Shown here one piece after another: positions 7,601-13,432 of a stretch of DNA of 24,116 nt (position 1 is its first letter; every line of letters begins with the position of its first letter). Made by a program: the position numbers and the translations under genes. Under the pieces are notes generated by a model, which saw nothing but the letters and a program-made list of their open reading frames with translations, did not search any database and was not told the origin of the DNA. The stretch spans positions 1 through 24,116 of the forward strand of contig JACVTC010000487.1 of assembly GCA_016946835.1 (NCBI GenBank). The letters run 5' to 3'. The DNA comes from Neocallimastix lanati (nom. inval.) (Eukaryota > Neocallimastigomycota > Neocallimastigomycetes > Neocallimastigales > Neocallimastigaceae).

Positions 7601-10600
7601 TTCTTATATATTTATCCATATAAAATAAATTAAATATATATATATATAATTATATATTTAAATAATAAAACTATATTTTCAAAAAAATATTTATATCTAA
7701 TTTGTCATGGTGTATTTATATATATATATAATTATATATTTAAATAATAAAACTATATTTTCAAAAAAATATTTTATATCTAAATAATTAAATAAATGTA
7801 CATATTTGTTTTTTTTTTAAATATTGATGATAAAAGAAAAAACATTTAAAAATTTCTTTACATTAATGAATCTTATATAATTTTTAATTCAATACATATT
7901 TATATATTTTTAATTTTATTACTAATTTTAACATATTTATATTTTTTATATTTTTTTTATTTAAATATATATTATAATTATTATTAGGTATTTTGGAATA
8001 GGAATTACTATTAATATTACTTTTATTATTAATTTTTTTTCTTTATTTTTGATGATTAATCCTTAATTTTAATATATATTAATAATACTTACAAGTTTCG
8101 CAGTTATTTGATTTTATTGTTATTCTGGAATTATTATCTGTTATATTTTATTCATTTAAGTTTTTTTTTTTTTTTTTCATTTTTATTGATTCAAAATTTA
8201 ATATATATAAATATTTTAATTTTTATATTTTATCAAATTAAACAATATATATAATATATATATATATATATTATATTTATTAACATAAAAAATACATTTA
8301 TTTTTTGCAATAAAAATTATAAAAATTATAAAAATTTTAAATATTATTTTGGATTCATTTTATATTATCATATTATTATTTATTTATACCTTTATTAAAT
8401 GATTTAAGACCTAAAATTATTTGTTAAAATATATTTTAAAATTTAAAGATATAATGATAAATAATATTGATAATTTATAAATTATATAGAGAAGAAATTA
8501 AAATAAAATAAATGTTTAATAATTTTATCATATTATATCACCATTATATAATATTATATTATATTATATTATAATATCATATTATATTATATCACATTAT
8601 ATTATATTAAATATCAATTATTATGATTAATTTATTAATAAAAATTTATTTTACCTTCTTCACAAGCTTATAATTTAAATAAGAAATGAAAAAATATTAA
8701 ATTATAAAAAAAAATTATATATTTTTATTCTCGATAATATATTATGTTAAAATAAATTATTTTAAATAGTTTAAGGTTTTTTTTTTTTTTTAAATTATTT
8801 AACAATTTTAATCGAGTTGTTTATTTTTTTTTATATGTTTCATTTAATTTATTAATTTAATAAAAAATTTTTATTAAAATAAAAAAAATTATTTTTCTTA
8901 TTGTTAATCCTTATAAATATAAAACTTTATGGAGATTTTTTTATTTTTTATTTTGTATATATATATATATATATATATATATATATATATTTAATTACCA
9001 GATTTACAACCTATTTAATATTTTTAAAAGTGAATTTTTTTTAAAAAATATATAAAGAAATTTTTATTAATTTTATATATAAAATTCTAATTGAATTTTA
9101 ATATAAATATTTTAATTAAAAAAATAAAAAATTATTTATTATAATTACATGTTTGACAATTATCATCCGATTCTATTAATAATAATTTATAATTTATAAA
9201 AAAAATAATAAAAATAAATAGTAATTCAATTAAAAAATATTAGCAATAAAATATTTTTAATGTTAAAAAATTATTTTTTTATATTTCTAATATTTTATAT
9301 TAAATCATTAAAAATTATATATAGATATTATTTAAAAAGAAAAAAAATTATAGTGAAATTACCACAAATATCTAAATAATTGAATATTTAAAAGTTCAAC
9401 AAGTAGAAGGCAAAAAAAAATTTTTTAATTTTAATATAATAATAATAATAATAATAATATAATAATAATAATAATAATAATAATAATAATAATAATAATA
9501 ATAATCAATAATAATAATAATATAATAATAATAATAATAATAATAATAATAATAATAATAATAATAATAATAATAATAATAATAATAATAATAATAATAA
9601 TAATAATAATAATAATAATAATAATAATAATAATAATAATAATAATAATAATAATAATAATAATAATAATAATAATAATAATATAATAATAATAATAATA
9701 ATAATAATTATTATGATTATTTAATCATATGAATTAGTTATTTAATATAAATATGATATATTGATTAAAAATATTATTTAAAATTTTAATTTTTATGAAT
9801 TTATAATACTTTTAACTAAATAAATATATATACATATATATATATTTTTATTTTAATACTTACCAGAGCATTCTTTAAATTATATTTTAAGAATTATATT
9901 ATTTAATTTATAAAAAAAATGATCGTACCAATTTAAAATATCAAATTTTTCAATAAAATTTAACATTTATAATATATAATTTAATATTATTTAATTTAAT
10001 TAGTTTTTAAAATAATTATTTAAATATATTATTCATATTAATTTTTTTTATTTAATTATTTAAATATATTATTCATATTAATTCTTTTATTTAATTATTA
10101 TTCTTTAAAAACTTTAATTTTACTTACGACCAACACAGTCATCGTATCCTTTACATTAAAATAAATATTAATTATTTTTAAAATAATGAATTAAGTTAGT
10201 AAATTAAGTTAGTAAAGAAAAATAATTCTATTTTAATTTTTTATAGCTTTAATTAATATTATATATTTATTTATTTATTTATAATAATATTATAATATAC
10301 TTACCACTTTTGTTATCTTATAAGAAAAAATATGTTTTTTATATATAAAATATTTAAAATATGAATTTATATATACTTAATATTATTAATTTTGATAATT
10401 TTCTAATATTCAGTATTTACCTACTATTAAAGTAAATTTAATTTATGATATAATATTAATTTTATAAAAATCAATTTTAAAGATTTGAATATTTGATTTA
10501 TTTATATTTAATAACGATTAAATTAACAATTTAATATGATAATTTATACTTACATTCTATTTATATTTATATTGTATTGTATTGAATAAATTTATATATA

Positions 10601-13432: not shown

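Follow-up and report, generated by a model that had tools for sequence, protein, structure and literature searches.

A tandem array on the minus strand of a Neocallimastix lanati contig is very probably a series of genuine spliceosomal exons of exactly 3 nt each, in a multi-copy gene family; we give this reading a probability of roughly 0.93. The window, by which we mean the whole stretch of DNA analysed (24,116 nucleotides of contig JACVTC010000487.1, locus C431 below), contains at 10421..13432 a run of 17 three-base segments, each with AG before it and a GT donor after it. They are given here together with the other predicted units of the array:

10421..13432, minus strand: the array of 3-nt exons, 17 with GT donors and one with a damaged donor, with introns of about 135 nt between them
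13430..13432, minus strand: 3-nt exon GCA, which opens the array in the window copy
First bases at 13293, 13157, 13020 and 12860, minus strand: 3-nt exons GGA, GCC, AAT and GCG
First bases at 12724, 12442, 12152, 12014 and 11874, minus strand: 3-nt exons TTT, GCC, ATG, ATA and AAA
12577..12586, minus strand: exon position with ten G, a length that is not a multiple of three; GGG in C268, and ten G likewise in C104a and C351
12303..12305, minus strand: an 18th unit, CCC, with the damaged donor GTTAAG; the donors are normal in C104b (CCC) and C268 (CCT)
First bases at 11745, 11627, 11476, 11349 and 11211, minus strand: 3-nt exons GTG, TTG, AAC, TCA and TGT
11053..11064, minus strand: 12-nt micro-exon TTGGAACGGATG, identical in C268 and C104b
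10554..10556, minus strand: 3-nt exon AAT
10421..10423, minus strand: 3-nt exon TAG, which phase 1 does not read as a stop

Automatic chaining of splice sites recovered 15 of the 17 triplets, and TTG at 11627 and TAG at 10423 were placed by hand. At these triplets the acceptors are mostly ATAAATAG and the donors mostly GTAAGTATAAAT. The exact pattern AGNNNGTAAGT was found 11 times in the window, always on the minus strand and always within the array; with at most one mismatch it was found 29 times (shuffled mean 11.9, sd 3.6), and the looser pattern WAATAGNNNGTAWRT with at most two mismatches showed a modest excess, 99 matches vs 74.9 expected, with 1 of 100 shuffles as high. The initial annotation had described minus-strand splice sites exactly three bases apart, spaced by about 140 bp, with variable triplets between conserved signals. 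The first point is borne out by the 17 units with GT donors and the one with a damaged donor, and the second by Tandem Repeats Finder, which reported a period of 138 bp (13.3 copies, 69% matches). For the third, we pooled 160 units from nine arrays (excluding C445, the near-identical C104a, C351, C70 and C571, and the relic C31), and among 78 columns the three exon columns were the lowest in conservation, at 0.02, 0.23 and 0.05 bits, while donor columns +1 to +12 and acceptor columns -5 to -1 reached 1.26 to 2 bits. A tandem period with 69% matches is also what a neutral AT-rich satellite with a 138-bp unit would give, its likeness to splice signals being due to chance; we consider that reading practically negligible, and conservation that changes so sharply, to the base, around the triplet speaks against it.

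The restriction of these exons to three bases was clearest when counted over the 199-Mb assembly. The pattern AATAG-N3-GTAAGTATAAAT had 99 exact matches, against one for its reversed control, while the same pattern with N2 had none genome-wide (reversed control 2) and those with N4 and N6 had one each (reversed control 1 in both cases), the N6 match lying inside the C268 array. Allowing one mismatch made the N3 pattern noisier, with 501 matches vs 237 in the control. When scored splice sites were chained with exon lengths of 1 to 60 weighted equally, we obtained 275 units, of which 263 were exactly 3 nt long, and none in reversed or opposite-strand controls. Lengths divisible by three account for 270 of these strictly chained units (263 of 3, one of 6, one of 9 and five of 12 nt); the five off-length units measured 10 nt three times, in near-identical copies of one gene, and 11 and 56 nt. 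Lower chaining thresholds fill the controls, for example with 336 units vs 44 in twice the sequence. Since the splice-site profile was trained on 3-nt units of these same loci, the genome-wide pattern counts are the cleaner test, and their confinement to a single exon length argues against a satellite. The introns are short and uniform, with medians of 132 to 140 nt by array.

The 99 exact matches lie on C31, C70, C90, C104 (two places), C112, C135, C235, C268, C351, C431 (the window), C445, C571 and C643 (two places), and amount to about ten distinct paralogous arrays plus one relic. The window aligns best with C104a (99.3% over 6.7 kb), C351 (99.2% over 6.8 kb), C70 (99.8% over 1.1 kb) and C268 (88% over 4.7 kb). 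C571, whose triplets equal part of the C445 array, looks like a second copy. C31 was considered as an ancestral array-free gene and rejected, as it carries a two-unit relic. That all 99 exact matches fall in family arrays or in this relic tells against mobile introns (introners) inserted in tandem, which the uniform units of one length would otherwise fit and which we judge very improbable; single matches outside the exact pattern were seen on C146 (relaxed pattern, among the matches listed) and C68 (N4).

The longest predicted runs of 3-nt exons comprise 50 units in C445, 27 in C268 and 24 in C643a, and micro-exons of 6 to 51 nt occur both upstream and downstream of the arrays. The C445 model has 78 exons, 62 of them of 3 nt; its array also shows a higher-order repeat of three units (TTG, ATG, ATT) that codes for Asp-Asp-Phe repeatedly, a feature that a satellite could share. 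The C268 model joins 65 micro-exons, 47 of 3 nt, into 444 nt drawn from 11.5 kb of genome. Under the general definition of a micro-exon gene used here, taken from an excerpted description (internal exons of at most 51 nt joined into one coding sequence), C268 presents 65 micro-exons, an open frame and a match to a public protein record, P0001.

This record provides the product evidence for array splicing, which comes from the sister gene C268 and not from the window copy. Joining the C268 array and the other micro-exons in order, and reading them in phase 1, gave a 147-amino-acid peptide predicted from the DNA alone. Compared with 5.77 billion proteins, this peptide returned four candidates and one match, P0001, a JGI protein of 248 amino acids encoded on one contig of 1,132 nt (E 3.8e-95; 100% of the query aligned, at 97% identity); the C268 peptides in phases 0 and 2 had no match to P0001. 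The alignment runs through the entire array; it contains three mismatches, and P0001 has one residue more than the model. Among the codons split by an intron, 62 of 64 are identical in P0001, as are 42 of the 44 that lie between two 3-nt exons. One C268 unit that has lost its donor (near 9945 of the oriented locus) is unmatched in P0001, which fits skipping of that unit. P0001 begins with a leader that is hydrophobic by eye and is encoded by two exons lying upstream of the C268 array, and it ends within the glutamate-rich region; a P0001-like leader exon also lies upstream of the arrays in C104b, C112, C135 and C235 as well as C268 (E 1e-8 to 9e-4).

P0001 is the sole product record and is represented here by its protein sequence and the length of its contig. 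The 65 exons are spread over 11.5 kb of genome, far too much for a contig of 1,132 nt unless the introns have been removed. Spliced RNA is thus much the most likely origin of P0001, and we infer that the contig is cDNA. The examined array loci match P0001 in single larger exons only, and a search for a contiguous copy in the 199-Mb assembly, a weak one run without a positive control, found none at E 0.001. The record refutes a satellite for the C268 gene. It also bears on the proposal that the whole array is excised, either as a single long intron or as several large ones, with the triplets as decoys: such skipping could be tolerable in the window copy, which has lost its frame and its 5' exons, yet P0001 holds the residues of the C268 triplets in order, and we hold this explanation to be highly doubtful. 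The triplets are exons, as the initial annotation had read them, in so far as P0001 carries the joined triplets of the sister gene.

The reading frame was taken from the larger flanking micro-exons, which show phase-1 introns; the sole exception is an intron within the leader, in phase 2. Phase 1 yields a cysteine-rich peptide whose cysteines align from one paralog to another even though a large part of the intron sequence has diverged. Five paralogs (C268, C104b, C235, C445 and C643a; 252 micro-exons, 616 codons) were assembled, their flanking micro-exons being placed manually with an eye to phase 1. Phase 1 was free of stops in them, phase 0 had 15 and phase 2 had 148, and when exon order was shuffled 2,000 times the phase-1 stops averaged 9.4 with a minimum of 2. 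A frame open through the flanking coding exons is a further point against a satellite. Taken alone, the arrays exclude phase 2 (62 stops in 228 codons) and do not separate phase 0 (2 in 238) from phase 1; the single apparent phase-1 stop of C104b in this array-only count comes from a missed 12-nt exon. Phase 1 implies that every codon of the array is split by an intron, each being made of the third base of a triplet and the first two bases of the one that follows. The view that the triplets are the informative part stands, as they are exons according to C268, with the addition that in phase 1 a triplet is not itself a codon.

Under phase 1 the pooled exon GC content was 0.54, 0.38 and 0.26 at codon positions 1, 2 and 3, an order that does not hold in C268 taken by itself (0.48, 0.57 and 0.57). 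The near-identical C104a, C351, C70 and C571 and the relic C31 were excluded from the stop, GC and assembled-paralog counts, C445 was left out of one line each of the array-only stop count and the codon-position GC count, and C90, C112, C135 and C643b were left out of the full models. The phase counts dropped ten chained units whose length was not a multiple of three or exceeded 12 nt: four in the window, including the ten G, one each in C135 and C268, and two each in C445 and C643b. One C445 unit, chained as a single T, breaks the frame (19 stops); taken as a 9-nt exon from an upstream CAG, it leaves the frame open.

Between copies, the triplets differ more than the introns: 6 of 54 triplet sites vs 105 of 2378 intron sites between the window and C268 (p 0.034), 6/24 vs 79/1319 between C268 and C104b (p 0.003), and 5/21 vs 84/1420 between the window and C104b (p 0.007). 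No purifying selection on triplets was therefore seen in these three pairwise comparisons, a result that a satellite would share. With the comparison restricted to sites where the first copy has G or C, the triplet excess was absent (2/25 vs 28/167, 0/5 vs 17/84 and 1/6 vs 22/97, respectively), while at A/T sites it was present (p 0.019, 0.0003 and 0.005). Base composition could thus explain the excess, and we make no claim that the triplets are under diversifying selection. Among sites with G or C in at least one of the two copies, the window and C268 differ at 2 of 65 in the splice signals and at 57 of 196 in the introns.

Downstream of the array the window copy continues, still on the minus strand, through micro-exons to a terminal exon, so that the order is array, micro-exons, glutamate-rich exon, chitin-binding repeats and a stop at 2783:

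10305..10316, minus strand: 12-nt micro-exon
10128..10148, minus strand: 21-nt micro-exon, cysteine-coding
9864..9872, minus strand: 9-nt micro-exon
9363..9371, minus strand: 9-nt micro-exon
9149..9172, minus strand: 24-nt micro-exon
8999..9010, minus strand: 12-nt micro-exon
8655..8666, minus strand: 12-nt micro-exon
8390..8410, minus strand: 21-nt micro-exon
8093..8137, minus strand: 45-nt exon
7481..7490, minus strand: zero-length AAAAG/GTAAG site, candidate recursive splice site, kept in paralogs
7249..7260, minus strand: 12-nt micro-exon
7080..7107, minus strand: 28-nt exon that breaks the frame; 30 nt in C268 and C104b
6737..6754, minus strand: 18-nt micro-exon
2783..6576, minus strand: terminal exon with glutamate-rich repeat, Ser/Thr linker, PF00187 repeats and stop; frame broken here

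Pfam Chitin_bind_1 (PF00187) matches the window at 3288-3986 on the minus strand with 85.9 bits (curated cut-off 27.8). The zero-length AG/GTAAGC site lies inside a long intron at the same place in C104a, C104b, C268, C351, C445 and C571, some of them diverged paralogs, and may be a recursive splice site. Homology of the window to the C268 array ends at about 13565, beside a plus-strand gene fragment, and the leader and first micro-exons are absent from the window copy; the joined window model, with the ten-G exon omitted, has three stops. Given the missing 5' exons, the ten-G exon, the 28-nt exon and these stops, the window copy is most likely a truncated, decayed and probably non-functional member of the family, in which assembly errors may be the source of the small frame breaks.

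The plus-strand fragment that adjoins the end of array homology (13560-13795) is the 3' part of a gene, with a Cys- and Trp-containing C-terminus and a TAA stop, and had no match in Pfam at E 0.1. Elsewhere in the window, a minus-strand ORF at 15114-15512 has a weak, sub-threshold match to the ZSWIM1/3 RNaseH-like domain and is perhaps, to judge from this likeness, a transposase remnant; a minus-strand ORF at 23731-24054 resembles by eye a fragment of a LINE-type reverse transcriptase; and a plus-strand ORF at 209-1294 matches PF01053, the Cys/Met metabolism PLP-dependent enzymes.

In C268 the frame continues from the last micro-exon into a single terminal exon of 5,091 codons (15.3 kb), which ends in repeats of chitin-binding type, recognized by eye, with the stop at C268:201931; chitin-binding repeats also lie downstream of the array in C90. 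Glutamate accounts for 3,588 of the 5,091 codons of this exon (C268:217206-201931, minus strand), a giant beside dozens of 3-nt exons. The predicted product thus looks rich in cysteine and would combine a linker that varies with a glutamate-rich region of great length and chitin-binding domains at the C-terminus. From the hydrophobic leader it looks secreted; a role in wall or surface attachment is our guess. P0001 matched no Pfam family at E 0.1 and only one PDB entry at E 0.94, which is chance level, and AlphaFold2 run on P0001 alone gave a mean pLDDT of 49.9.

The usual explanation for limits on exon size is that splice complexes compete sterically. Since a 3-nt exon cannot hold the 3' and the 5' splice complexes at once, the spliceosome would have to remove the introns of an array in 5' to 3' order, working by intron definition, which fits introns that are short and uniform. 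Each splice would add its triplet to the growing upstream exon, and the next donor would thereby become usable. The suggestion that intron definition must operate some twenty times in a row was right in kind, as far as this mode of splicing goes, and understated if the other arrays are spliced alike, the predicted run in C445 being 50. The arrays themselves would grow and shrink by tandem duplication of the 135-bp intron-plus-triplet unit, and duplication of whole units implies one residue gained or lost per step, without a frameshift.

Nearly all micro-exons are multiples of three and in the same phase, and this would also suit a generator of variants, in which triplets are skipped in many combinations, the frame is kept and one junction codon is rewritten per skip. 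P0001 is one residue longer than the C268 model within the array, and schistosome micro-exon genes, as far as their excerpted description goes, owe their isoforms chiefly to alternative splicing of the central exons (PMC10526429). However, P0001 aligns to all 147 residues of C268, which fits inclusion of all 47 three-base exons, and a related allele carrying one additional unit would account for its extra residue equally well. No second isoform was found, either with the C643a peptide as query (three candidates, none at E 1) or with a seven-row alignment profile, for which 8000 candidates were scored and P0001 was the sole match. We regard such a generator as possible, if rather unlikely. We would attach a further proposal, for which we see about even odds. 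For stretches of up to some 45 to 60 residues, the DNA of the gene would hold no intact codon; each codon would be made by the joining of two 3-nt exons, in dozens of obligatory 5' to 3' splicing steps that each set up the context of the next donor. The string of codon cassettes would add, drop or swap single amino acids in frame, through duplication of units from one generation to the next and perhaps through skipping in a single transcript.

Several known systems resemble these genes in part. The MEGs of Schistosoma mansoni are described in the excerpted source as a multi-copy family for secreted proteins with many short internal exons, mostly multiples of three; a gene has between 10 and 20 short exons, the majority 15 bp long, separated by introns that can reach 5 kb, and the minimum exon is given as 6 bp in the text and 3 bp in the abstract (PMC10526429). 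The family reported here shares with them, so described, the many short exons in multiples of three, the multiple copies and a product that looks secreted, and differs, in a comparison made by description only, in having up to 62 3-nt exons in a 78-exon model, a run predicted to reach 50, and introns of a uniform length near 135 nt. Aphid bicycle genes, in the excerpted account of them, code for putative secreted effectors and have about 17 exons, with numerous small internal ones that share nearly a single phase, and megacycle has more than 100 micro-exons; as about 2000 amino acids are encoded, its mean exon must be far above 3 nt, and, unlike here, runs of 3-nt exons do not appear in that description (PMC9168663).

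Single exons of this size are known elsewhere. Human RPS24 has, according to the excerpted source, a 3-bp exon beside micro-exons of 18 and 22 bp with regulated isoforms (PMC12686416), that is, one alternatively included 3-bp exon among three micro-exons rather than an array. Plant micro-exons of 1 to 15 nt (APC11, VPS55) are accurately spliced, and in the part of the source at hand the ultra-short ones are single or two adjacent (5 + 12 nt, in one rice gene), not arrays (PMC8831610). Exons of 3 bp are mentioned, in an excerpt, for fungal mitochondrial genes with another type of intron (PMC12308204). Recursive splicing, as excerpted, places an acceptor beside a donor at a zero-length AG/GT that is used stepwise (PMC13149111); unlike that process, the arrays would keep three bases per step, have short introns and write coding sequence at each step. 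Among the titles and abstract openings listed from open-licence PMC, we found no report of micro-exons in gut fungi or of long runs of 3-nt exons, and consecutive arrays of 3-nt exons, with predicted runs of up to 50, are new to the literature covered (open-licence PMC, among the matches listed).

Gene finders and aligners are likely to miss genes of this kind. A family that joins dozens of consecutive 3-nt exons would lend itself naturally to testing whether splicing by intron definition proceeds in order, and how faithfully, as a single wrong step costs or rewrites a codon. The public match, P0001, indicates that one product exists, so that direct experiment is possible. For the genes themselves, the arrays would offer a route by which protein length may change one residue at a time.
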